Shown one piece after another: positions 767 to 11,729 of a stretch of DNA of 33,016 nt. Every line of letters begins with the position of its first letter. Positions within the stretch are counted from its first letter, which is position 1. Source of the DNA: Deltaproteobacteria bacterium (GTDB lineage Bacteria > Desulfobacterota > Desulfomonilia > Desulfomonilales > Desulfomonilaceae); assembly GCA_016875095.1 (NCBI GenBank), contig VGSG01000048.1, positions 1 through 33,016 of the forward strand, in the 5' to 3' direction. The notes beneath the pieces are model-generated. The model saw only the letters and a program-made list of their open reading frames with translations, did no database searches and was not told where the DNA came from. The translations under genes were made by a program, and so were the position numbers.

Positions 767-816
767 GTCTGAATGATTCCGGCTGGTTATTGGCTGGGGG
801 ACAAGGATTCGAACCT
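767..816. repeat. Left attachment repeat (displaced tRNA-Gln 3' end)
   Basis: This 50-bp stretch matches 10538-10587 with two adjacent mismatches (CT here, TG there). Its right part (790-816) is the complement of the 3' end of the tRNA-Gln gene: CCA, discriminator, acceptor strand and T arm up to the middle of the T stem, after which similarity stops at 817. A tRNA 3'-end fragment right beside a tyrosine integrase gene is the expected footprint of site-specific integration. Confidence 0.9.
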
Positions 817-847
817 TAGCCCAGCCGAAAAAGCGAAGTGAGATCAG

Positions 848-1981
848 CTAGTTGCGGAACCGTTTTTCCAGTTGCTGACACTTTGCGGAATCGATATTGA
901 TTACGGCAGCTTGGCGCTGCGCTTGGCGTAAAGGCTTGGTATCTAAATGAGAATAGCGCGCGGTCATCGCCATAGTGCTATGCCCCAGGAACTTTGAGAT
1001 CACATACAATGACACTCCACGGTTCGCGGCCTGCGATGCGAAGGAGTGCCGCGTGCCCTCATACAGGTTTATGGCCGACACGCCCGCATTCTTGCAAGCC
1101 TCTGTCCATTTTCGCCACGGCCAAGTCCGCGAGATGGGCTTACCGTCTTTTGTGAAGACGAACGCTTCCGGATTGATATTCCGAGGCCGGGATAAATAAA
1201 GCTCCTTCCATATAGGGTCAAGAGGTATGCGCCGGATGCGTTTGGTCTTCGTGTGCCTCAAGTCATTCTCCGAGAAAGCGCGCCTGATTGTCACTACGTC
1301 GCTGTCAAGGTCGATGTCTTGATGTTGCAAGGCCCTCGTCTCGCCGGTCCTGGTTCCGTGGGTCACCTGGAAGAAAATGAAGAAAAAGTCTTCAGGAGCC
1401 AGCTCCTTCAGAACAAGGTCTTGAATCTCTTCGTTCGCCCACTTCCAATCCGGTTCCGGGATCTCACTGGCTTTCAGCTCTTTCGGGAACTTGGGAGGGC
1501 TCTGAATCAGTTCGTCATCATAGGCACTCGCAAACACCTTATGCAGGATCATCATGTTGTTATAGACGGTCTTCGGAGCCTTCTCCAATGTCAGATAGAA
1601 TTCCCTGATATGCTTTCCTCGAATATCTTGAAGGCTCATCTCTCCAAAGTAGGGAATGAAGACATCATTTACACACCGGCGGAGTTGCCCCAGATAGCCA
1701 CGGCTGATGTCCCCGCGTTCCATCTTGCGCTCGTATGATCGAAGCCAATCCTCTGCGTAGGTGGTAAAACTGTGGAGGCTTTTGCGGGTTTTCGAGTAGA
1801 AGTCCGGGTCAAACGTGCCGTTTTCGATTTCACCCTGAATCCTGGCTAGGGCCCACTCCGCATGTTGGCGAGAGTAAAGCGTCCTGTGGTTCCGATCACA
1901 AAAGATCTTGATTCCGCCTGGCAACACGATACGCCATCGGTCTCCCCTATCCCGATAGATCTTCCCAATGCTCCCGGCCAT
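848..1981 (-). CDS. Tyrosine recombinase (phage-type integrase)
   Basis: This 377-residue protein catalyses site-specific recombination between the element's attP and the tRNA-Gln attB. An N-terminal arm-binding part (about 1-65) is followed by a SAM-like core-binding domain (about 70-165) and the catalytic domain. Catalytic residues visible are Arg211 in THGTRTGE, Lys246 in TKTKR, Arg311 in EGTRHS, His334 in LGHST and the nucleophile Tyr343 in ARYSH. The usual HxxR box reads ExxR here, a substitution worth noting. I start at the ATG at 1981 because GGAGG lies 7 nt upstream. A longer open frame to 2206 has no family similarity in its extra 75 residues. The gene ends 31 bp from the left att repeat. 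Confidence 0.93.
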   Translation of the reverse strand: MAGSIGKIYRDRGDRWRIVLPGGIKIFCDRNHRTLYSRQHAEWALARIQGEIENGTFDPDFYSKTRKSLHSFTTYAEDWLRSYERKMERGDISRGYLGQLRRCVNDVFIPYFGEMSLQDIRGKHIREFYLTLEKAPKTVYNNMMILHKVFASAYDDELIQSPPKFPKELKASEIPEPDWKWANEEIQDLVLKELAPEDFFFIFFQVTHGTRTGETRALQHQDIDLDSDVVTIRRAFSENDLRHTKTKRIRRIPLDPIWKELYLSRPRNINPEAFVFTKDGKPISRTWPWRKWTEACKNAGVSAINLYEGTRHSFASQAANRGVSLYVISKFLGHSTMAMTARYSHLDTKPLRQAQRQAAVINIDSAKCQQLEKRFRN

Positions 1982-2212
1982 GACCCAGCCTCCAGCCGAT
2001 CCTTTGCCATTCGGGAGGGGATCGTATGTTGCTCTACCGGGATACGTCAACGATTTTTCTCTATCCGAGGGAAAGCCCCGCTGAACGCGGTGAGCCGGAA
2101 GCGTCGGGTGGAACTTTTTTTCGCATCGGCCAGCATTCTGGATATTTTTTTCACGTCTGCCGCGCCATCGGTGCGTCGTTCTTGCACACCGGAGCGCCCC
2201 CGTCAACCGCCT

Positions 2213-2365
2213 TTAGGTCGCTTGACGCAGTATGGTGTCCATGAGGTCCATATCTTGAGCTTCCCTAGTCATATCAAAGAGATGAAGATAGACACTCCCT
2301 GTCCATGAATGTCCATATTTTGGGGGGCTGCCCGAAACGTGGTGTGATATAGCTGGGTTATTCAT
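2213..2365 (-). CDS. Possible 50-aa small protein between integrase and primase
   Basis: A short frame runs leftward from an ATG at 2365 with a strong AAGGAGG 8 nt upstream, and stops at 2213. The product starts MNNPAISHHVSG and ends in a charged helix-like stretch (TREAQDMDLMDTILRQ). I recognise no family. It overlaps four of the iterons, which read as part of its codons. It could be a small regulator such as an excisionase or copy-control peptide, or a chance frame. The ribosome-binding site is the main support. Confidence 0.45.
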   Translation of the reverse strand: MNNPAISHHVSGSPPKYGHSWTGSVYLHLFDMTREAQDMDLMDTILRQAT

Positions 2366-2474
2366 AGACACGCCCTCCTTACACCCGAATTATGGACGGG
2401 ATGGACACCTGATGGACACCCCGCTGTCCATCTATATGTCTTAATTATTATTATTATTTTAGAGCATATGGACA
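2236..2474. other. Probable replication origin: ATGGACA iterons and AT-rich tract
   Basis: Seven exact copies of ATGGACA or its complement lie at 2236-2242, 2300-2306, 2310-2316, 2401-2407, 2412-2418, 2425-2431 and 2468-2474, with two six-of-seven copies at 2246-2251 and 2392-2397. Neighbouring copies are spaced 9-11 bp, about one helical turn. Four are followed by CC or CG in the same sense (ATGGACACC). An AT-rich stretch (about 2432-2460) of repeated TTA units lies among them and could be the unwinding element. In P4-type satellites the primase-helicase binds repeats at its origin, and the primase gene here ends at 2498. The rest of 1982-2497 holds only the small frame at 2213-2365. Confidence 0.72.
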
Positions 2475-2497
2475 CGATTGACGGTGACACCCCCTTC

Positions 2498-4381
2498 TTA
2501 AATTCGGTCAAGGCACGCCTCGCCATATCGGGATCTAGGGGCCCAGGTGGGCACATACATCTCGTCCTCCGGGGGGAGCACGAACTTGTGCTTTTGCCCC
2601 GCTGCCCGCTGAAGATCCCCAGATTCCACCATCCGCGAACAGAGTTTGTATACGGCATCATAACTTTGTTTGGTCTCCAGACACTGCCAGACATCCTTTG
2701 CGGTCAGCGGCTTGCCTTCAGCGGCGAAAACGCGCCGGATCTCTTTTCTTTGAGCGGTCAATGCCAGTTCACGCGGGTCACCCTCGTACCGCCAGATTCC
2801 GCTTTGAAACGACAGAGCGTGCTCTTGGTCAACAAGGTCTCTGCCGGTCACAAAGAGGGTTGCGCTAGAATCGGTCCGATTTTTCCGCCTCATAATATGG
2901 ATGAAATCACAGGCACCGGATAAGGCGGTTGATCCTAGAATTCCGTCGAGGGGATCTTCGCTGGTTTCCTTTCTCAGATGGTGGATAAGTAGAATTCCTG
3001 TCTGATAGAGGCTTGCCAGGGAGTGAAGCTCTTGTAGGTCGGCGTAGTCACCGTGATATGCGTCCTCATTTGAGGACCGGCGTCCCCGGAATCTGCTCCA
3101 TGTGTCTATAATCACGAGCTTTATGGAAGGGTTGTCTTCGAGGTGCTTGTGGAGTAAATCCATACCGCCTTTCATCAGGTGCGGCCACTCACAGGCTATC
3201 AGATGCGCTTCGGGGGGCGAGGTTCCTTCAAGAATCATCGAAAGCCGCTCCCTCATCCTGCGTTTGTTGTCTTCAAGGCACAAACACAACACACCAGCTT
3301 CCTGGGCTGGAAAATTTCCTAGAGCCTGCCCACCCCGTGCCACTGCGACTGCGAGATTTTGGCATAGCCACGATTTCCCGCTCTTCGCCTTCGCGGCGAG
3401 AAGCCCCAGCCCCTCTGGTAGCAGATCTTGAATGATCCAGCGGGGCGGATTGAGGTCGCTTTCGAGCAATTCTTTACAGGTGACTATTTCCGGCCCGGTC
3501 CGTGGCAGTTTCCAGTCCGGCGTCTCAGATGCCAGCGCAAGCACCTTCTGACGGGCGGCCTCCTCTCCATGATCACGGACGTAATCGCTCAAGTCCTTGC
3601 CTCCAGGCAGAGACGCAACTTTGAGAGAGCGGCAGATGAGGCGCAGCGTTGTGGCCACATCTTCCGCATATTTCTCTCCAGCCGTGTCCCGGTCCGGTAT
3701 GACGAGCACCTGGCGATCTCGAAGAGCTTCATGGGCACCGTCCTTTACGCACGCCTGCCAGCCGTTCGCCCCCCCTGGGCTCGTAGTGGCGAAGTAACCG
3801 AGCGCCTCAGCCGTCTGCACGTCCTTTTCGCCTTCCAGGAAGATGATCCACTCATGATCGCGTGCGCTCAGTAGACGCGGCAGACGGAACAGCAGACGGG
3901 GAACATCCTTCATGCCCTGCGTCCACTGGCCCTTCCCGTCTCGTGTAAATGGTCGGAAGGTTTTCGGCTCGAATCTAGCCACTTTGAACTTGATCGTTTC
4001 GTCCTGATCCTCATAATCGTAAACGACCTTTGCATCTTCCAGGCGTAGACCTTTCTTTGGGATGGAGGCGTCAGGGAGATCAATCCCGGCGCAGTGAGCC
4101 AAACCCCGGACAGCGGTGCGATGATCGCAACCGTGCTTGAGTCGCCATAGGGAGATAATGTCCCACGCTTTCGAGCCGTTTCCGGGCGTGCATCCTGCGT
4201 GACAAAATCCGTGATCGCTTTCGACCTGAAACGACGGGGTCCTGTCGTCATGTCCCGGCATGGGGCAATAGGAATTACCGCCCTGACGGTGCTTTTCTGG
4301 AAATAGCTCCAGGAATAATTCGTCAAAGCGAACCTTCTTTTTGATTTCCGCAATAATGTCCTTAGATTCATTACTAGCCAT
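2498..4381 (-). CDS. Primase-helicase (CHC2-like zinc finger, TOPRIM, RecA-like ATPase)
   Basis: This 627-residue protein likely starts and drives replication of the element. Residues 39-64 hold a zinc-binding set (C39, H44, C60, C64) like the CHC2 finger of DnaG primases. A TOPRIM domain follows, with EGEKD at 183-187 and DRD at 230-232 as metal-binding acids. Residues from about 320 form a RecA/RepA-like ATPase: Walker A AKAKSGKS (330-337), Walker B LVIID (422-426) and a sensor-like IHHLR (466-470). A winged-helix-like tail covers about 545-600. I start at ATG 4381 because the zinc-finger domain begins just after it; the ribosome-binding site is weak. The extra 56 upstream residues look unrelated. 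Its combination of domains matches satellite and plasmid primases more than chromosomal DnaG. Confidence 0.88.
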   Translation of the reverse strand: MASNESKDIIAEIKKKVRFDELFLELFPEKHRQGGNSYCPMPGHDDRTPSFQVESDHGFCHAGCTPGNGSKAWDIISLWRLKHGCDHRTAVRGLAHCAGIDLPDASIPKKGLRLEDAKVVYDYEDQDETIKFKVARFEPKTFRPFTRDGKGQWTQGMKDVPRLLFRLPRLLSARDHEWIIFLEGEKDVQTAEALGYFATTSPGGANGWQACVKDGAHEALRDRQVLVIPDRDTAGEKYAEDVATTLRLICRSLKVASLPGGKDLSDYVRDHGEEAARQKVLALASETPDWKLPRTGPEIVTCKELLESDLNPPRWIIQDLLPEGLGLLAAKAKSGKSWLCQNLAVAVARGGQALGNFPAQEAGVLCLCLEDNKRRMRERLSMILEGTSPPEAHLIACEWPHLMKGGMDLLHKHLEDNPSIKLVIIDTWSRFRGRRSSNEDAYHGDYADLQELHSLASLYQTGILLIHHLRKETSEDPLDGILGSTALSGACDFIHIMRRKNRTDSSATLFVTGRDLVDQEHALSFQSGIWRYEGDPRELALTAQRKEIRRVFAAEGKPLTAKDVWQCLETKQSYDAVYKLCSRMVESGDLQRAAGQKHKFVLPPEDEMYVPTWAPRSRYGEACLDRI

Positions 4382-4410
4382 TGAATTTCTTCGCTTCCAA
4401 CCTGATTTTT

Positions 4411-4692
4411 TCAAGCTGCTTCCGGGGGTGCGCTCCACGATGCTCCGATAAGCTGCTCTAGTCGGTCCATTTCGCGGGCTACTGGTCCGCTGATGTGCTC
4501 CAGCCCTTGCGGTCGCTCGAATGTCATGTTGTCTATGATTTCGCGCCACTCCTGGAGCTGCGATTCATCCCAAAACCGCATGGCGTCAAAGCCGATTGAA
4601 CAGGACACAGGAAACGCGCCGATGTCTTCACAGCGACGCAAGGCCCAGAGCGGCACGTTGAGGCAATGGGCAATGTCAGACAGCGTCAGCAT
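4411..4692 (-). CDS. Small HTH-like protein
   Basis: The 93-residue product begins MLTLSDIAHCLNVPLWALRRCEDIGAFP, which reads like the helix-turn-helix of MerR/AlpA-type regulators (helix, turn at LNVP, recognition helix). A helical C-terminal half follows. The ATG at 4692 has an AAGGGGGG stretch about 8 nt upstream and overlaps the end of the previous HTH gene by 7 bp, implying translational coupling. The stop is about 30 bp before the primase start. It probably helps regulate or excise the element. The specific function is unknown. Confidence 0.65.
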   Translation of the reverse strand: MLTLSDIAHCLNVPLWALRRCEDIGAFPVSCSIGFDAMRFWDESQLQEWREIIDNMTFERPQGLEHISGPVAREMDRLEQLIGASWSAPPEAA

Positions 4693-4880
4693 TGGGTTTC
4701 CCCCCTTGAACGTTCGTTCCGCAACCAGTCCTCGAATTCCAAACGAGGAAAGCGGTAATGGCCGTGGGCCCCCACTTTCACCGAAGGGGGGCCTAAGCCT
4801 TGTCGGGCCCATCGGCGGATGGTTTGTTCATGCACTTTGAGCTGCTCGGCAACCTGACGAACTGTAAAAGCGGGTTCCAT
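4686..4880 (-). CDS. Excisionase/AlpA-like HTH protein
   Basis: The 64-residue product (FTVRQVAEQLKVHEQTIRRWARQG, then HYRFPRLEFEDWL) fits the HTH_17/excisionase family: a winged HTH with the typical 'R-F-x-x-x-x-F/I-x-x-W/Y-L' wing. Such proteins act as recombination directionality factors or as activators of satellite operons. The start ATG at 4880 has GGAGG 5 nt upstream. A perfect 21-bp palindrome sits 23-43 bp upstream and may be its own operator. Confidence 0.82.
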   Translation of the reverse strand: MEPAFTVRQVAEQLKVHEQTIRRWARQGLGPPSVKVGAHGHYRFPRLEFEDWLRNERSRGETQC

Positions 4881-4902
4881 TATTACCTCCAAGCGTTTGT
4901 TC

Positions 4903-4923
4903 ACCATCAAAGCATTTGATGGT
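4903..4923. promoter_or_regulatory. Candidate operator: perfect 9+9 palindrome
   Basis: ACCATCAAA at 4903-4911 and its exact complement at 4915-4923 flank a GCA spacer. The site lies just upstream of the HTH gene starting at 4880. On the minus strand a run of T precedes the stem rather than follows it, so it is not a terminator for the upstream gene. An operator bound by one of the element's HTH proteins is the simplest reading (inference). Confidence 0.5.
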
Positions 4924-4938
4924 CCATGTAAAAAAAAA

Positions 4939-5451
4939 TTACCAGCCTAGAGCGGCCGCGGCGATCTTATAGAATCGGCGAACAGCCAAGAACGCCATTG
5001 ACTGATCGCGGCTGATCCCGGCTGTGTCCAGCCAGGAGTCGGCCATTTCCTTCACGGTTTGATCGTTGGCCGCGTAGTATGTCATTCCGTATTTTCGGCG
5101 GGGCGGCGTCCTTTCGCGGCGCACAATGACCACAATAATGACGTTATAATTGGCTTCCAGATAAAGGGCATCAGGAATGCCAAATGGATCATTCAATAAG
5201 GTGGTGACCCCATCTGTGCAAACATCGGTGTCAACATGTTTTCGGTCATGAAGTAGACCCAGCGACGCCAATTCATCAAGAACCCCCGCCTGCACCAACT
5301 CGACATGCCGAAACTGATTGGGCAATCCGGGCCCCTTGGAGCTGTATTTGATTGGCAGAAGTCCGCTCGCAATCCTATAATGGAGAATTTGGGGGGATAT
5401 CCAGGGGAATGCCCGGCACACGTCGCGAGAAGTGAATAGGTCGTCTTTCAT
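4939..5451 (-). CDS. Unknown protein with HTH-like N terminus
   Basis: The 170-residue product starts MKDDLFTSRDVCRAFPWISPQILHYRIASGLL, a pattern like MerR-type winged HTH N termini. A hydrophobic strand follows (ALYLEANYNVIIVVIVRRE) and then a helical C terminus. I recognise no family. A GTG at 5472, overlapping the nuclease stop codon, would give 177 residues. I prefer the ATG at 5451 because the HTH begins there, although neither start has a clear ribosome-binding site. It is tightly coupled to the nuclease gene, so the two may act together. Confidence 0.7.
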   Translation of the reverse strand: MKDDLFTSRDVCRAFPWISPQILHYRIASGLLPIKYSSKGPGLPNQFRHVELVQAGVLDELASLGLLHDRKHVDTDVCTDGVTTLLNDPFGIPDALYLEANYNVIIVVIVRRERTPPRRKYGMTYYAANDQTVKEMADSWLDTAGISRDQSMAFLAVRRFYKIAAAALGW

Positions 5452-5465
5452 GACTGGGGGGAGTT

Positions 5466-6023
5466 CTAGCACATTATTTGATCCGCTTCAAGCTCTTTTA
5501 TGTCAAAATCTAAGGCATGGTATTCTTTAGGTATATGATTCTGTAATCGTTGAGCGGCGCGAGTCACGTTATCGGCGGCCTTAAGAAACTGGTGAGCGTA
5601 CTTCCCGAGTAGTGATTGAATGATTCGAGCAGCAATAGAGCGGTTTTCGGAGAAAAGGAAGGGTCTCTTATACTTCGCGGTCCAGCTCATTATTGATTGA
5701 AACATCGCCTCTGGATTGGCGTTGCTGTTATATTGCCCCCCAAATAGGTCTGAAATAGCGCTTTCGACCACTACGGCAAAGAAATCAAGGCTCCGGGCGC
5801 GATGAAACTCCTTCTCGAACCTTTTCCGCCCGGTGGTGAAGCTGTTCACCAAGTCGTTTAGGGACTTCCGCTCAATACTAATCCGATCTTCCAGGCCGAC
5901 GATTGAATAATCGCCGACTGATAAAGTTCCCGTTATTGTAGGCACAGAAAATTCAAGGAGGCGCTGTTCCCGCGAGTCAACGATAATAAGCGGATCGAAA
6001 TCAGGTTGCGGAACCACTCTCAT
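5466..6023 (-). CDS. ERCC4/XPF-family nuclease
   Basis: The 185-residue protein carries the ERCC4 nuclease signature: VDSREQ (Asp16), VGDYSI (Asp38) and ERKSLNDLV (Glu51-Arg52-Lys53, Asp57), matching the GD(x)n ERKxxxD catalytic motif. Family members cut branched or forked DNA using a metal ion. No helicase or helix-hairpin-helix domain is attached, so it is a stand-alone nuclease as seen in some phages and plasmids. It overlaps the upstream gene by 23 bp and abuts the downstream one, so it lies in the leftward operon. Processing of replication or recombination intermediates of the element, or attack on competing DNA, are both possible. Confidence 0.85.
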   Translation of the reverse strand: MRVVPQPDFDPLIIVDSREQRLLEFSVPTITGTLSVGDYSIVGLEDRISIERKSLNDLVNSFTTGRKRFEKEFHRARSLDFFAVVVESAISDLFGGQYNSNANPEAMFQSIMSWTAKYKRPFLFSENRSIAARIIQSLLGKYAHQFLKAADNVTRAAQRLQNHIPKEYHALDFDIKELEADQIMC

Positions 6024-6459
6024 AGCTCATCCGAGGCTGTCCCAGACTTTTCCAAATAAGCGCGTCCAGCGCAGCGGCCAGGGTGAGCCCCTTGGTCCTG
6101 CGCCAATCCTCAAGGGCCTCATAGAGCGCGGCGTCAAGCGTGCTCCCCACTTTCACGCGCTTGCCGGGCTTGCGGGGTTTCCCAGCCGGGCCGGGAACCT
6201 TGCCGGGTGGTTGCGGCGGGAGGTCCAAGTCCGAGGTCTGAAGTTTCGGTAATGTCCGCTCTTTCATGATCCGTTTCATTTCCGTCTGAATTAGCTGAGT
6301 AATCTGACGCAGCCAGGCATCGGGGATCGGCTCGGGTATGTCCGACTTCTCTGAACTATCAGACATTGCTAACCGGCCTGAACTGTCGTGCCTTTCTGCT
6401 GTCGGAGGCTTCCGGTTTTTCCGGACGCTGGCCTTAGTCCTCTTGGTCGCTTTTGTCAC
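6001..6459 (-). CDS. Small basic protein of unknown function
   Basis: The 152-residue product has a Lys/Arg-rich N terminus, an acidic patch, a Pro/Gly/Lys linker (about 80-100) and a C-terminal part (VGSTLDAALYEALEDWRRTKGLTLAAALDALIWKSL) that looks like a ribbon-helix-helix-type DNA-binding segment. The start is a GTG at 6459 with GAGAGGA about 5 nt upstream. It begins 24 bp after the serine recombinase stop codon and overlaps the nuclease gene. A DNA-binding accessory protein is plausible but not shown. Confidence 0.65.
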   Translation of the reverse strand: MTKATKRTKASVRKNRKPPTAERHDSSGRLAMSDSSEKSDIPEPIPDAWLRQITQLIQTEMKRIMKERTLPKLQTSDLDLPPQPPGKVPGPAGKPRKPGKRVKVGSTLDAALYEALEDWRRTKGLTLAAALDALIWKSLGQPRMSYESGSAT

Positions 6460-6483
6460 GATTTTCCTCTCTTTCCGCCCGCG

Positions 6484-7161
6484 TTACGCTGCTTCTCGCA
6501 AAATGCGGATAATTTGGGTCTCACGAAACCGCGTTGCCTTCCGGGTCATCGTTCCTTCTTCAGTGAGCTTGTCGGCGATCCCCCTATAACTGACACCTTG
6601 GGCCCGCAAACCCCTCATGCGGTGGATTACGCCCTGTTCAGCCGGATCGGGTTCGAGTTTGCCGTTGACGGACCGGAAACCATAGGGGCAGAGTCCGCCT
6701 GTCTTCTCACCGTTTGCTCGTTTCTGAGCAAGCGCGGCCGCGGTCCTTTCCGCGATCAGGTTTCTTTCCATCTCGGCCAGGGAAGCGGTTAATGTGAAAA
6801 AGAATCTGCCGAGTGCGCTCTGGGTGTCCAGCTTCTCGGTTATCGAATGCAGCGCGACCCCGGTTTTGTCCATGACCTCGGCCATGCGCAAGCATTCCAC
6901 GGTGTTCCGTGCGAGCCTGTCCAGCTTGAAGACCACCACAGCGTCAATTTGGCGGGCGTTAACCATTTCGAGGATGCTCTGGATTCCGGGCCGTCCCTTG
7001 ATGCTCTTGGCGGAGATCCCCGCGTCCTCAATGATCTCTACCAGGGTCAGGTCGTTCAGTTCACAGTAAACCCTGACCTTGGCGGCCTGCATCTCCAATG
7101 AGATGCCCTCACGCGCCTGCTCCTGGCTAGAGACTCGGATGTAACCGATTGCTCGTTTCAT
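6484..7161 (-). CDS. Serine recombinase (resolvase/invertase family)
   Basis: The 225-residue protein has the small serine recombinase catalytic domain: GYIRVSSQEQ with the nucleophile Ser11, KLDRLARN, and a long helix E region (SLAEMERNLIAERTAAAL). A C-terminal HTH follows (GVSYRGIADKLTEEG, then TQIIRIL). Family members resolve dimers, invert segments or transpose. I start at ATG 7161 with AGGGGG upstream; the longer frame to 7329 adds 56 residues without similarity. It heads the leftward operon and has a good promoter just upstream. In an element that already has an integrase it may resolve multimers, or mark a second insertion. Confidence 0.9.
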   Translation of the reverse strand: MKRAIGYIRVSSQEQAREGISLEMQAAKVRVYCELNDLTLVEIIEDAGISAKSIKGRPGIQSILEMVNARQIDAVVVFKLDRLARNTVECLRMAEVMDKTGVALHSITEKLDTQSALGRFFFTLTASLAEMERNLIAERTAAALAQKRANGEKTGGLCPYGFRSVNGKLEPDPAEQGVIHRMRGLRAQGVSYRGIADKLTEEGTMTRKATRFRETQIIRILREAA

Positions 7162-7182
7162 GGCGGCACCCCCTTTGTCAGT

Positions 7183-7211
7183 AGTATCTGAAATGTCAGA
7201 CAACTTGTCAA
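7183..7211 (-). promoter_or_regulatory. Sigma-70-type promoter of the leftward operon, with TGTCAG repeats
   Basis: On the minus strand a perfect TTGACA (7206-7211) is followed after exactly 17 bp by GATACT (7183-7188). The recombinase ATG lies about 20 bp beyond. TGTCAG-like half sites, including the short palindrome TGTCAGACA, recur through about 7174-7240 and overlap both promoter boxes. This suggests repressor control (inference). Confidence 0.6.
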
Positions 7212-7307
7212 GGGAAAAGTTTCCGACAAATCTGACGACATGAGTTTTTTCTGAAAAGACTAAGGAGGTCAGAAACTTCCGAACTGTCTGCGCACACAGA
7301 TCGACCG

Positions 7308-7382
7308 AAGTGTGTGCGTCCCCGGTCAAAAGGATCGTGCTACCCGGTCACGACCTTGGCCGGTTCGAGCCCGGTCACACCT
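7308..7382 (+). other. tRNA-like fold with three CCCGGTCA repeats
   Basis: A 75-nt stretch can form an acceptor-like stem (7308-7314 with 7376-7382, 6 of 7 pairs), a D-like stem (GTCC/GGAT), an anticodon-like stem (TCGTG/CACGA with an oversized 9-nt loop) and a perfect 5-bp T arm with a TTCGAGC loop (7359-7375). The anticodon loop is not canonical and no CCA is encoded, so it is at most a decayed tRNA. Alternatively the three direct copies of CCCGGTCA at 7321, 7343 and 7370 are protein-binding sites. The rest of 7212-7725 contains no gene I can support. Confidence 0.3.
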
Positions 7383-7725
7383 TCCCGCGGAGATTGCGCT
7401 ACGCGATACGAGAGCAACGCAGTGGGAGGCACAGACGGGCCGGGCAGGAGAGTCACCGGGGAAGTCCACGCCCAAGAGCGTGCGGCTCAGGTGCCTGCTC
7501 GTTGACGTGCTTGCGAGGGATGCGATGATCTTTGAAGATCGGTTCGAGGCGAGGCAGGCCACGCCCACCGGGGGGGAGGGTCCCTGGGGCCCGTATCTCC
7601 ATACCCATAGCCGTTACCCCGATTACGGTTTGTCGCTGAGGCTAATTTCCGCCAAATTCTTGCCACCGCGGGGAGCAGGAACGGCAAAATGGACGATGGG
7701 CGGTGTACGCAACTCGAAATTTCAT

Positions 7726-8910
7726 TTAACGGTCCTTCTTTGAGGAAAGGAGCGCTTCAACGTCGGCGAACCCCATTTTCTTGGCGTAATCAAGAGCGGA
7801 CAAACCATCATCATCGGTTAGGTTCGGATCAGCACCAAATAGGAGCAACTCTCGTACGGTTTGCACATCTCCATTGTTTGCCGCACAAATGAGGGGAGTA
7901 CGGCCAAATCTATCTTGTACGTTCACCTCCGCACCCGCACCATAAAGTATTTCCACAATTTCTCGATGACTGTGGAACGCTGCTGCAACTATAGGCGGCC
8001 AGGGGTATTCTCCTCGCTCGTGGATAATGGATCGGTCTTCGGTTAAGGTGCGTACCAGCTGTACATCCCCTGATATGATAGCTTTCATGAGAGCATGGTG
8101 CTTTTCGGGCATGACCCGCGGAGAGACGTTCGGAAGAGGCTGAGCCGGCGGCAACTGAGCCCTTTGGTGACCGGCTGGCTCTCCCGCCGGCAATTTCACA
8201 ACTGGTTCGGTGTTCTGAGTCAAGAGGTAAGTCAAAAGAGGAATAACGAAGATCACCACAAAGGCTGCCAATGCAACTTGCAGTTTTCCCCGGGAATCAG
8301 CAGATTTGTCGGTCTGATCCCGCTGCTCGGTAGGGAGGGGCTCTGTGATTGCGACCGGTGACCTAGGGGCTTGGTCTTGCGCGGCATCAGGCGGACTTGG
8401 ACCCCGTTCATCCCGCCCCGCTGAACGGCCGATTCCAAGACATACGAGCAGGAGTCCTAGCAGCGTGACAACTACTGAAAAAAGTTGCACGACCAAGAGG
8501 AATGAAGATCCTCGTTGGAGCCAACGAGCATCGGGCACGAAGGCGGGGGTCTCTCCAAGCGTGTAGGAAGAGTAGTAAAGTAATAAGCCAAAGACTATGG
8601 TCGAGACTCCAGAAAGAGTAAATCCCTCCTTACCTCTTGTCAAAGACAAGGATATTCCCCCAACTAAAGCAGCTAAAGGGCCCACGAACAGACAAATTAG
8701 CGACGAAAAAAGATCCCTCGTCGCCAGCAGGGTCTCTTGGCGCCTCATATCGAGCAATTCGGGAGTCCATGGCCCCTTGAGCTGTGTTCTTTCGACCCTC
8801 GGCACCAAGGCCAAATCTACCAATAAGAGACCTAATCCAAGCAGCAAGAATACCCAGCCCACAATCAAGAGCGTCCGGCGATTGTCTTCAATCCAGCTGC
8901 GAAGTTCCAT
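7726..8910 (-). CDS. Membrane-anchored ankyrin-repeat protein
   Basis: The 394-residue product has about five hydrophobic segments: one near residue 20, three to four between about 65 and 165, and one near 220. A Pro-rich linker then leads to a C-terminal ankyrin domain (about 275-390) with typical repeat phrases such as GDVQLVRTLTED, SHREIVEILYGAGAEVNVQD and GRTPLICAANNGDVQTVRELLLFGADPN. Ankyrin repeats bind proteins, so it may sense or tether a partner at the membrane. The start at ATG 8910 has a run of G 7 nt upstream. It is likely cargo, and its role (host interaction, defence or superinfection exclusion) is not visible from sequence. Confidence 0.78.
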   Translation of the reverse strand: MELRSWIEDNRRTLLIVGWVFLLLGLGLLLVDLALVPRVERTQLKGPWTPELLDMRRQETLLATRDLFSSLICLFVGPLAALVGGISLSLTRGKEGFTLSGVSTIVFGLLLYYSSYTLGETPAFVPDARWLQRGSSFLLVVQLFSVVVTLLGLLLVCLGIGRSAGRDERGPSPPDAAQDQAPRSPVAITEPLPTEQRDQTDKSADSRGKLQVALAAFVVIFVIPLLTYLLTQNTEPVVKLPAGEPAGHQRAQLPPAQPLPNVSPRVMPEKHHALMKAIISGDVQLVRTLTEDRSIIHERGEYPWPPIVAAAFHSHREIVEILYGAGAEVNVQDRFGRTPLICAANNGDVQTVRELLLFGADPNLTDDDGLSALDYAKKMGFADVEALLSSKKDR

Positions 8911-9018
8911 CCCTATCCCCCCTCGAAGCAAGATCTACTTATGGACTGTACTTTCCTGACTGGGCCTGGTCAAGGCAAACTTGCTCCCGTTCAATTCTTT
9001 GAGCAACCGAAGATATCT

Positions 9019-9249
9019 TCAGCGGTTAGAGGCATATTCCGCCTCCTGTCTATGCCGAGCAAGATACTCGTCAATGTCCTCTTGCCTGAAACGCCAACAC
9101 CCGCCGATCTTGTGGCCGGTGATCTGGCGGGAGAGGACCAACATGCGTGCGGTGTCGCGGCAAATGCCGAAACGGCGGGCAAGCTGTTGAAGGTCGATAA
9201 GGCGTTGACTAGACGTAGGTTTCACGGATTGAGAACTGTTTTCTGACAT
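9019..9249 (-). CDS. HTH_17/excisionase-like DNA-binding protein
   Basis: The 76-residue product (LIDLQQLARRFGICRDTARMLVLSRQITGHKIGG, then WRFRQEDIDEYL) matches the excisionase/HTH_17 pattern, with its wing ending in the usual 'F-R-x-x-D-I-D-x-Y-L'. The ATG at 9249 has GAGGAGGG 4-5 nt upstream. It is the third AlpA-like protein in the element and sits nearer the right att site, so it is a candidate recombination directionality factor. Confidence 0.82.
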   Translation of the reverse strand: MSENSSQSVKPTSSQRLIDLQQLARRFGICRDTARMLVLSRQITGHKIGGCWRFRQEDIDEYLARHRQEAEYASNR

Positions 9250-9385
9250 GGTACCCTCCTCAGTTCAGTCCTTTGTCCCATGCGCTCATGGTTTCCGGAC
9301 CCGTTTCTTCGTTACATCTCGCCAGCATTGATTTTCTTTCGGAGCACACTGGATAATCTGAAACGCACCCCTTGTTGGCGTTCAT

Positions 9386-9904
9386 TCATCGGGGAGCGTT
9401 CGCGTGCGTAGCCCTGACAACAACCCCATAAACCTTATCCGCCGCGACAAAATTGTCTTGCAGTGCCTTACAACGCTCGCAGATACGAACTCTCCTTCGA
9501 TCCGGGGACATGAAATAGTGCTCCGGTTCGCCGGGCCCAAGGCACACAACAAGGCCACCTTGCGGTGGGCACAGAGGCTCCTCCTGCAAACGAAGGTGGT
9601 TAAGCTCAAACTTCTTTTGCGCCACGCATTCTTCACGGCACTCCTTATGGAGTGTATCCCGACTTCTCCCCGGCAATGGGAATCCACACCAGGAGCAAAG
9701 CCGGACAGCAGCGCGCGGCTCAACCGCCTTCCTAGCAGGTCGTTTCACAGCCCCGTCCTCGCTTAGGCGCTTCTTTTCGCGAGTCCGCCTGGCCGCTTCG
9801 TTCTGCAATCGGTGGCTGCATTTGTGGTGATATTTTGTAGTCCGCAAAGCATGTGGCGGTAAGGGCTTTCGACACAATCGACAGAGTCGCGGCTTCATTG
9901 GCAT
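9386..9904 (-). CDS. Zinc-finger protein with duplicated CxxC...HxxC unit
   Basis: The roughly 170-residue product has two similar zinc-binding units: CRLCRKPLPP followed by YHHKC, and CSWCGFPLPG followed by LHKEC. Another CxxC (CERC) lies near the C terminus. A basic linker (ARRTREKKRL) separates the units. I recognise no named family; nucleic-acid binding is likely. Starts at 9904 or 9898 both follow a GGAGAGGG sequence. Confidence 0.65.
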   Translation of the reverse strand: MPMKPRLCRLCRKPLPPHALRTTKYHHKCSHRLQNEAARRTREKKRLSEDGAVKRPARKAVEPRAAVRLCSWCGFPLPGRSRDTLHKECREECVAQKKFELNHLRLQEEPLCPPQGGLVVCLGPGEPEHYFMSPDRRRVRICERCKALQDNFVAADKVYGVVVRATHANAPR

Positions 9905-10537
9905 CCCTCTCCCCATTTAGGCGAGCCCACAGGTTAAGGGTTGAGTTGCGGATAATTGCAGAATTCTTTGGATCGGTGTTACCAAATTGCTCAAAGCTGT
10001 GTCAAGAACAAAAAGCTGTAATATCGCAATACAGCACCCCATTCCGCGCTGTTGGCTTCTTACCACGCGATATTTATTGATTTTCTTTGGTCTATTTGGG
10101 TCAAAAAGCCGGCGAGGTAGCGCTGTTGGCCAGGCTGGGAGCCGTTTATGGCCCGTGATGTAAGGTATGGTTTTTGAAAATGGCGCTGTCAAAGCGGCAT
10201 TTATGGCTTATGTCTGGGGTGACATAACCATTCGTTCCTTTCTCACGCTCGCTTGCCATAAAGTACCGCAAGCTTTTTCCAAAATCGGCCAAACCCGCCC
10301 GATACCGATTCCCAGTCTTATGTTTTCCGACAATTGAGCGGGCGAGGAAACCGGTCCTGGGCATTCGTAACGTCGCGATTTATTGAGCCTAATCGGTTGC
10401 CGGAGTGAGGGGAGGGGAGCTACAGGGCCCGGGCTCCCGGATCGAGGCATGATGGGAGAAGCCGACCGGTGAGGATCTTAGAAAGGGAGGGCCCTCTAAA
10501 TATGCTGATAATCTGCTGATAACTTTTCGGGGGGTCG
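9905..10537. other. Right-end non-coding region of the element
   Basis: I find no convincing gene in these 633 bp. A hairpin at 10203-10231 pairs ATGG and TTATGTC with GACATAA and CCAT around a TGGGGT loop, and may be an operator. Two TGCTGATA copies 11 bp apart (10503-10510 and 10514-10521), about 17 bp from the att repeat, look like arm-type integrase or excisionase sites. Short frames here lack ribosome-binding sites. Confidence 0.4.
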
Positions 10538-10587
10538 GTCTGAATGATTCCGGTGGGTTATTGGCTGGGGGACAAGGATTCGAACCT
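10538..10587. repeat. Right attachment repeat within tRNA-Gln
   Basis: This is the second copy of the 50-bp repeat. It covers 24 bp beyond the tRNA 3' end plus the 3' part of tRNA-Gln, and it continues into an intact tRNA. The left copy continues into unrelated sequence. Hence the element restored the tRNA gene on integration. Confidence 0.9.
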
Positions 10588-10635
10588 CGGTTACCTGGGC
10601 CAGAACCAGGCGTCCTGCCGCTAGACGATCCCCCA
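10562..10635 (-). tRNA. tRNA-Gln (anticodon CTG)
   Basis: The minus strand folds into a complete cloverleaf: acceptor TGGGGGA/TCCCCCA, anticodon stem CCTGG/CCAGG with loop TTCTGGC (anticodon CTG, reading CAG), and T arm with loop TTCGAAT. CCA is encoded (10562-10564). It lies 37 bp downstream of the tsaC stop codon on the same strand, so co-transcription is possible. It is the integration site of the element. Confidence 0.95.
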
Positions 10636-11430: not shown

Positions 11431-11601
11431 GCGTCCAGGATGGACGCCACGATAGTAGCCCGGCGATTTATCGCCGGGAATGAGCAGTCAAGAAAAGGTT
11501 TGTTCGTCCCCAGGTGGCGCCCGAAGGATCAATCCTTCGGGCGCCACCTGGGGACGAACAGGTTGATCTTTGCTTGTCGGTTACCCGGCAATGAATTGCC
11601 G
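11431..11601. repeat. Cluster of perfect hairpins including a 29-bp foldback
   Basis: Four inverted repeats follow one another: 11431-11447 (7-bp stem), 11459-11478 (CCCGGCGAT, 9-bp stem, 2-nt loop), 11501-11560 (29-bp perfect arms with a CA loop) and 11586-11601 (7-bp stem, GA loop). The second and fourth resemble each other (CCCGGC-AT core). They lie between the ntrY stop (11730) and the tsaC start (11317), both on the minus strand. No T tract follows, so termination is uncertain. I see no gene in 11318-11729. Confidence 0.75.
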
Positions 11602-11729
11602 AGCTACTTTCAATCGCCCCTTTGGGGCTTCAGCGGAGTTGAGCCAAGCGAAGCGCATCGCTCGCGGCCTTTTCCTCGACCGATGCGGTTCCTTCGCGGA
11701 ACACAGGGTCACCACGTCCAGCCTGCCGG

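Follow-up and report, generated by a model that had tools for sequence, protein, structure and literature searches.

An inserted block at the 3' end of a tRNA-Gln gene

Contig VGSG01000048.1 (33,016 nucleotides), one of the 202 contigs of a 4.7-Mb deltaproteobacterial genome, was analysed in its entirety and is referred to here as the window. Its only tRNA gene is an intact tRNA-Gln(CTG) on the minus strand (10562-10635), recognized by ARAGORN and by Rfam with 56.6 bits. A scan of the window revealed a direct repeat of 51 bp at 766-816 and 10537-10587, in which 48 of the 51 bases match and whose copies are spaced 9771 bp apart; the second-best match of this 51-mer within the window agrees in just 28 of 51 positions. 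The right copy consists of the last 26 nt of tRNA-Gln and 25 nt beyond and holds the 3' end of the tRNA. In the left copy these 26 nt are duplicated (791-816), and a tyrosine integrase gene adjoins this displaced tRNA end. An intact tRNA at one end, its duplicated 3' end at the other and an integrase gene inside are the marks of a tRNA-targeted tyrosine-integrase element. As read from the sequence, they show that the block has inserted at the 3' end of tRNA-Gln and makes the gene complete again. The initial annotation had proposed a complete integrative element at this tRNA, with the integrase beside the displaced end and attachment (att) repeats of 50 bp; the element, the position of the integrase and the repeats with their spacing stand, whereas the repeat length is corrected to 51 bp with three mismatches.

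For the greater part the element has a G+C content of about 0.53-0.55, which locally reaches 0.58; the right flank has 0.57-0.58. The nearest integrase (53% identity) is found on contig CAJBEZ010000003.1 of an uncultured Desulfomonile sp. from the same family as the window; judged by this match the host is Desulfomonilaceae-like, in keeping with the Desulfobacterota lineage named at the outset.

Genes of the element and a putative replication origin

All assigned genes lie on the minus strand. They and the remaining features are listed below, beginning at the tRNA. The real genes probably start later than the longest open reading frames (ORFs), and start codons were refined; aa stands for amino acids and HTH for helix-turn-helix.

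10562-10635, minus: tRNA-Gln(CTG), intact, integration target
10537-10587: att core at the tRNA end, from repeat comparison
10499-10522, minus: two 11-bp direct repeats (ATCAGCA) near the tRNA, candidate arm sites for the integrase (TRF and repeat scans)
9386-9904, minus: hypothetical protein, about 172 aa, with two CxxC...C/H clusters seen in the sequence alone, without convincing family match
9019-9249, minus: AlpA/excisionase-like HTH_17 protein, 76 aa, GGAGG upstream (PF12728, 9e-11; TIGR01764, 3e-8)
7726-8910, minus: membrane protein with several spans (by eye) and ankyrin repeats at its C-terminus (PF12796, 5e-20)
7321-7377: CCCGGTCA in three copies close upstream of the serine recombinase gene, weak (reached in about 2% of shuffles)
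6484-7161, minus: small serine recombinase, 225 aa from ATG 7161, ORF to 7329 (PF00239, 1e-39; PF07508, first half)
6001-6459, minus: recombinase partner, 152 aa, with a ribbon-helix-helix (RHH)-like C-terminus; homologues beside serine recombinases in loci L026 and L037
5466-6023, minus: ERCC4 (XPF/Hef-type) nuclease, 185 aa, with the motifs VDSRE, GDY and ERKSxxDL (PF02732, 5.7e-14; phrog_3490, 2e-22)
4939-5472, minus: hypothetical protein, 177 aa, MerR-like N-terminus by eye; inspection alone, without family match
4686-4880, minus: second AlpA/excisionase-like HTH protein, 64 aa from ATG 4880 (phrog_66, 3.5e-12)
4411-4692, minus: small HTH protein, 93 aa, by sequence inspection (phrog_66, weak, E 0.021)
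2498-4381, minus: primase-helicase, 627 aa from ATG 4381 (PF13481, AAA_25, 6e-26; CHC2, 5e-5; Toprim_2, 1e-4; phrog_239, 2e-34)
2234-2476: putative origin with ATGGACA/TATGGAC iterons in both orientations around an AT-rich stretch; same position in relatives
848-1981, minus: tyrosine integrase, 377 aa, likely from ATG 1981 after GGAGG, ORF to 2206; catalytic motifs present (PF00589, 3.3e-20; phrog_1, 4e-47)
869-888, minus: candidate integrase arm-type site(s) on the integrase side, TGTCAGCAA and a degenerate second copy, by sequence inspection (pattern match 873-890)
766-816: displaced att core at the integrase-side end
716-765: degenerate arm-like repeat outside the element; a 101-bp match to 10487-10587 has 78% identity, and other tRNA flanks align as well

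The primase-helicase is a DnaG-type primase, with CHC2 zinc finger and Toprim domain, fused to a RecA-type helicase (AAA_25). The 291 bp between its gene and that of the integrase, just 3' of the primase gene, contain the heptamer ATGGACA seven times in both orientations (2236-2474), and these iterons lie on both sides of a stretch with 85% AT (2430-2469). When the element was shuffled 300 times with its dinucleotides preserved, no 7-mer was counted more than four times per 300 bp, so that none of the shuffles reached the seven copies observed.

The position of this cluster recurs. Among 16 loci that have a related primase, 12 show their densest cluster of 7-mers, taken over 5 kb, at most about 400 bp from the 3' end of the primase gene (binomial about 5e-13, the uniform null taking no account of how the loci are related). 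The repeat itself differs from locus to locus: TCGGACA in L037, CTGTCGC in L038, ATGACAG in L035, CTGACGA in L122 and GGTGACA in L121. For 28 new loci from the wider phylum the criterion was fixed beforehand as a position between -300 and +450 relative to the 3' end of the primase gene. Half of them (14) had a cluster of at least five repeats, which was near the primase 3' end in 11 of these 14 cases; over all 28 loci, 13 clusters were near this end versus about two expected (about 7%). Some clusters sit within the 3' end of the primase gene and could be coding repeats. An AT-rich stretch flanked by repeats was seen in several loci, most clearly in L122. Origins of phage-inducible chromosomal islands (PICIs) are situated directly 3' of the initiator gene and comprise two iteron sets around an AT-rich region (PMC6092414). 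Since the same layout is found here, the region 3' of the primase would be expected to work like a PICI replicon, which does not establish the element as a PICI.

The second AlpA-like protein also gave weak matches to small-terminase families; these are put down to the shared HTH, as its best match is the excisionase and regulator family phrog_66. Alignments relate the ERCC4 protein to the archaeal Hef-type nuclease 1j22 and also to proteins of haloarchaeal viruses and of mostly actinobacterial plasmids. For the serine recombinase the relatives of solved structure are the TP901-1 integrase, invertases and resolvases, and the CCCGGTCA repeats upstream of it could be an operator or a resolution site. 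Single-sequence structure predictions reached pLDDT (predicted local distance difference test) values of 55 and 36, the fold being too weak to prove an RHH in the partner protein. Pfam and PHROG profile searches of the tested element ORFs gave no match to capsid, tail, lysis or relaxase families, nor to Psu, Sid, delta or epsilon; no packaging gene was found, and no partition ATPase was identified in the element. Several statements of the initial annotation are thereby borne out, namely the primase-helicase, the AlpA-like proteins (one through HTH_17, the other through PHROG), the lack of structural genes and the iterons, for which no coordinates had been given.

Two observations concern the flanks. 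Just outside the element (36-560) the NAD-binding part of a hydroxyacid dehydrogenase is joined in frame to a piece of metallo-beta-lactamase fold; the fused ORF is likely a deletion scar. On the other side, at 11432-11629, two inverted matches to the Acido-Lenti-1 RNA (RF01687) surround a perfect inverted repeat of 29 bp (11501-11560). This RNA family has nine matches in the genome, several as inverted pairs, and behaves as if it formed the ends of a small repetitive element.

Related elements and possible traces of other integrations at tRNA genes

Relatives of the primase-helicase were found in 19 and relatives of the ERCC4 protein in 11 of 60 related genomes, and several of these loci adjoin tRNA genes and carry an integrase. 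Three of them lie in genome G005: L122 at tRNA-Arg(CCT) with att repeats of 53 bp at 96% (12,054 bp), L037 at tRNA-Glu with a shared att of about 42 bp (10.4 kb) and L038 at tRNA-Pro(CGG) with att repeats of 49 bp at 100% (11,155 bp). A further related element, L040, is located beside tRNA-Gly; no tRNA-like att repeat was found at its other end, the contig stopping before. As a single-protein query the primase had no relative in viral contigs or genome contigs; the integrase alignment yielded none in viral contigs and four loci in genome contigs, two of them close.

When the ORFs of 19 regions were clustered, the integrase was present at 14 loci, the primase-helicase at 12, the ERCC4 protein at nine and the serine recombinase at seven. 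The latter two therefore appear as parts of the family, although they had at first been regarded as non-standard components. That judgement holds for the ankyrin protein, whose membrane half was found in none of the 60 related genomes and which is probably cargo private to this element. Gene order is conserved in part at the tRNA genes of relatives: L122 shares with the window the order serine recombinase, partner-sized protein, ERCC4, and L037 the order recombinase, partner, primase, integrase. The partner proteins form two groups with a similar C-terminal pattern, a suggestion that both are one family. The helicase half of the primase is RecA-type in the window and SF3/D5-type in L122; as far as the sequences tell, it is exchangeable.

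Short repeat pairs with a period of about 11 bp are situated inside both ends of L122 (GTTGAC), L037 (GGGTAACTTT/GGGAAACTT) and L038 (TGGGAGTAATA), the pair of L038 coming from a scan and those of L122 and L037 from reading of the ends. This is the layout expected of integrase arm sites, for which the pairs are candidates. Outside the element, the arm-like repeat at 716-765 is taken for a scar that an earlier element left at this tRNA, which is not proven. Similar sequences follow a tRNA-Gly (contig C127), a damaged tRNA-Gln copy (C59) and a tRNA-Met (C66) of the same genome and may, likewise without proof, be scars of other elements. A function of the downstream motif (TGTCAGCAAA pairs) as a tRNA terminator feature was thought less likely, since only few tRNAs carry the motif downstream and other elements have matching pairs at both ends. 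The integrase faces the intact tRNA in L040 and L117 and lies at the far end in the window and in L122, so that both arrangements exist.

Some further observations were made at these and similar loci. The second tRNA-Gln copy (L002:1574-1647, on C59 of genome G000) is, with its flanks, 84% identical; its anticodon reads CCG (Arg), there are two mismatches in the acceptor stem, and it looks like a decaying duplicate, not a working tRNA-Arg. In the same genome, arm-like repeats come after genes for tRNA-Gly, tRNA-Met and tRNA-Val as well as after an isolated 3' piece of a tRNA (L025:7658-7800, L105:1450-1600, L032:1367-1520, L033:170-300); they suggest that its tRNA genes have been or are still occupied by several integrations. 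The same genome contains a decayed relative of the element (L026:168-5400, on G000:C31) with a primase-like frame interrupted by stop codons, a broken serine recombinase, an RHH-like partner and, upstream of the recombinase, a repeat present four times about 75 bp apart. Just downstream of the serine recombinase of L034 (11614-11760) the palindrome-like CCTCGAG occurs about nine times in 150 bp, possibly a binding array for the partner protein. L037 has a third att copy (3252-4078), and in L038 another integrase-like ORF adjoins the left att on its outer side (2345-3711); both look like tandem leftovers and suggest repeated integration at the same tRNA. A DUF5131 protein common to two elements of different genera (L038:11902-12714, L040:15008-15799) is possibly cargo.

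Nature of the element and comparison with known systems

We consider the block to be probably an intact mobile element that integrates and carries its own replicon. In favour of this are the att repeats with the intact tRNA, the uninterrupted ORFs, the catalytic motifs of integrase and ERCC4 protein, the homologous elements at different tRNA genes (Arg, Glu, Pro, Gly), three of them with att repeats, and the iterons together with their recurrent position at the primase 3' end. Quite possibly it represents, within Desulfobacterota, a family of integrating, satellite-like replicons not described before, which combine a primase-helicase and a co-varying 3' iteron origin with an ERCC4 protein and a serine recombinase with RHH-like partner, nuclease and resolvase processing the replication products of the element itself. 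The integrase, steered by the AlpA-like excisionase, would bind the 11-bp arm repeats near both ends and recombine the 51-bp repeats, releasing a circle of 9771 bp. Using the iterons that lie 3' of the primase gene, the primase-helicase would open this circle and then copy it. We infer that the ERCC4 nuclease acts on branched intermediates of replication or recombination by trimming them, and the serine recombinase would resolve multimers, its RHH-like partner serving to regulate or assist it. The element would then reintegrate in the same or another cell, the transfer between cells presumably requiring a helper that it does not encode.

Several points weigh against such an element. The arm-like repeat in the left flank means that the integration site is probably not pristine, and no empty site was seen, as the collection holds no second genome of the genus. 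Compared with the closest relative L040 (53% identity of the integrases) the core is flipped relative to the integrase, so that the pairing of integrase and att sites is not proven. The iteron position fails at four loci (L034, L039, L040, L044), and excision, replication and multimer resolution are deduced, not observed.

A narrower version of this reading, a strict phage satellite of the PICI or PICMI (minimalist PICI-type) kind that is induced by a helper, replicates from its own origin and is packaged into helper capsids, is possible. Integrase, AlpA-like protein and primase without structural genes are the core of such satellites, and the size is in their range, the averages being 10 kb for P4 and 9.5 kb for PICIs (PMC10803314). 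The origin is placed 3' of the primase as in PICIs (PMC6092414). A terminase-like gene elsewhere in the genome (E 1e-15) indicates that tailed phages probably infect the host. However, neither TerS nor a capsid-morphogenesis, Psu/Sid/delta/epsilon or other known hijacking gene was found, and a divergent master-repressor arrangement is lacking. To our knowledge, a serine resolvase-type gene is also not usual among satellite parts. Of the initial proposal, an autonomously replicating satellite or minimal integrative plasmid, the replicon-like module is retained; satellite status is not proven, given that no helper-interaction, packaging or capsid-remodelling gene was seen and that Psu/Sid/delta/epsilon matches and a divergent Stl/integrase arrangement, the P4 and PICI features looked for, are lacking.

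The second half of that proposal, a self-maintaining integrative plasmid alternating between chromosome and circle and spreading rarely by transformation or passive transduction, appears somewhat doubtful. It would account for the iteron origin and for the serine recombinase with its RHH-like partner, a pair in the style of plasmid maintenance; moreover, the helicase half resembles proteins encoded by small plasmids, among them the 8.3-kb plasmid of Caldicellulosiruptor bescii, and ERCC4 genes are found on plasmids too. Yet the element shows no partition ATPase, and no free circular relative was found. Some mobilizable islands do pair an integrase with a replicon of their own, as in SGI1 replication (PMC7433901), but an integrative mobilizable element that depends on a conjugative helper and an undetected transfer origin (oriT) is improbable here, with no relaxase match in the element or in ten tested proteins of its relatives. 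Loss of structural genes from a prophage is the least probable origin and was rejected: although the families of the primase (phrog_239) and of the ERCC4 protein (phrog_3490) occur in tailed phages too, the ORFs are compact and uninterrupted, the ends are intact, and relatives of 10-12 kb carry the same core at different tRNA genes, none of their tested proteins being clearly structural.

Our preferred reading, an integrating element with a satellite-like replicon, is of a known kind. Its recurrent complement of ERCC4 protein and serine recombinase was not found described in the literature searched; a search for a described Desulfobacterota satellite likewise returned nothing relevant. Phage satellites and small integrative replicons have so far come mostly from Enterobacterales, Vibrio and Gram-positive cocci. 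Here an anaerobic lineage is seen to harbour a recurrent family, of which one finished 6.5-Mb genome (G005) holds several members. The different iterons next to the primase of each element offer ready initiator-origin pairs for specificity tests, and the recurrent ERCC4 protein raises the testable question of what use a branch-cutting enzyme is to a minimal replicon.

With PICIs, including the SaPIs (PMC6092414), the element shares the integrase, an AlpA-like regulator, a primase-type initiator with an iteron/AT-rich origin directly 3', the similar size and, among the tested ORFs, the lack of structural and lytic genes. In contrast to PICIs its genes lie on one strand, integrase and replication modules not diverging around a master repressor; an Stl-type divergent regulator, terS and capsid genes are missing, the helicase half is RecA-type (AAA_25), and the ERCC4 protein and the serine recombinase are additional. 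Integrase, alpA and primase without capsid remodelling genes are likewise common to the minimalist PICMI satellites (PMC10803314), from which the element differs by its larger size, its site at tRNA-Gln instead of fis and a primase without DUF3987/DUF5906. P4-like satellites (PMC8628076) also have a site-specific tyrosine integrase, a primase-helicase and an AlpA-like protein, whereas psu, sid, delta and epsilon are absent here and the helicase domain is a different one. Finally, as in the tRNA-integrated genomic islands of the Islander database (PMC4383910), a displaced tRNA end and a restored tRNA mark the ends; unlike these islands the element is not a cargo island but a small, defined and recurring replicon-like core.

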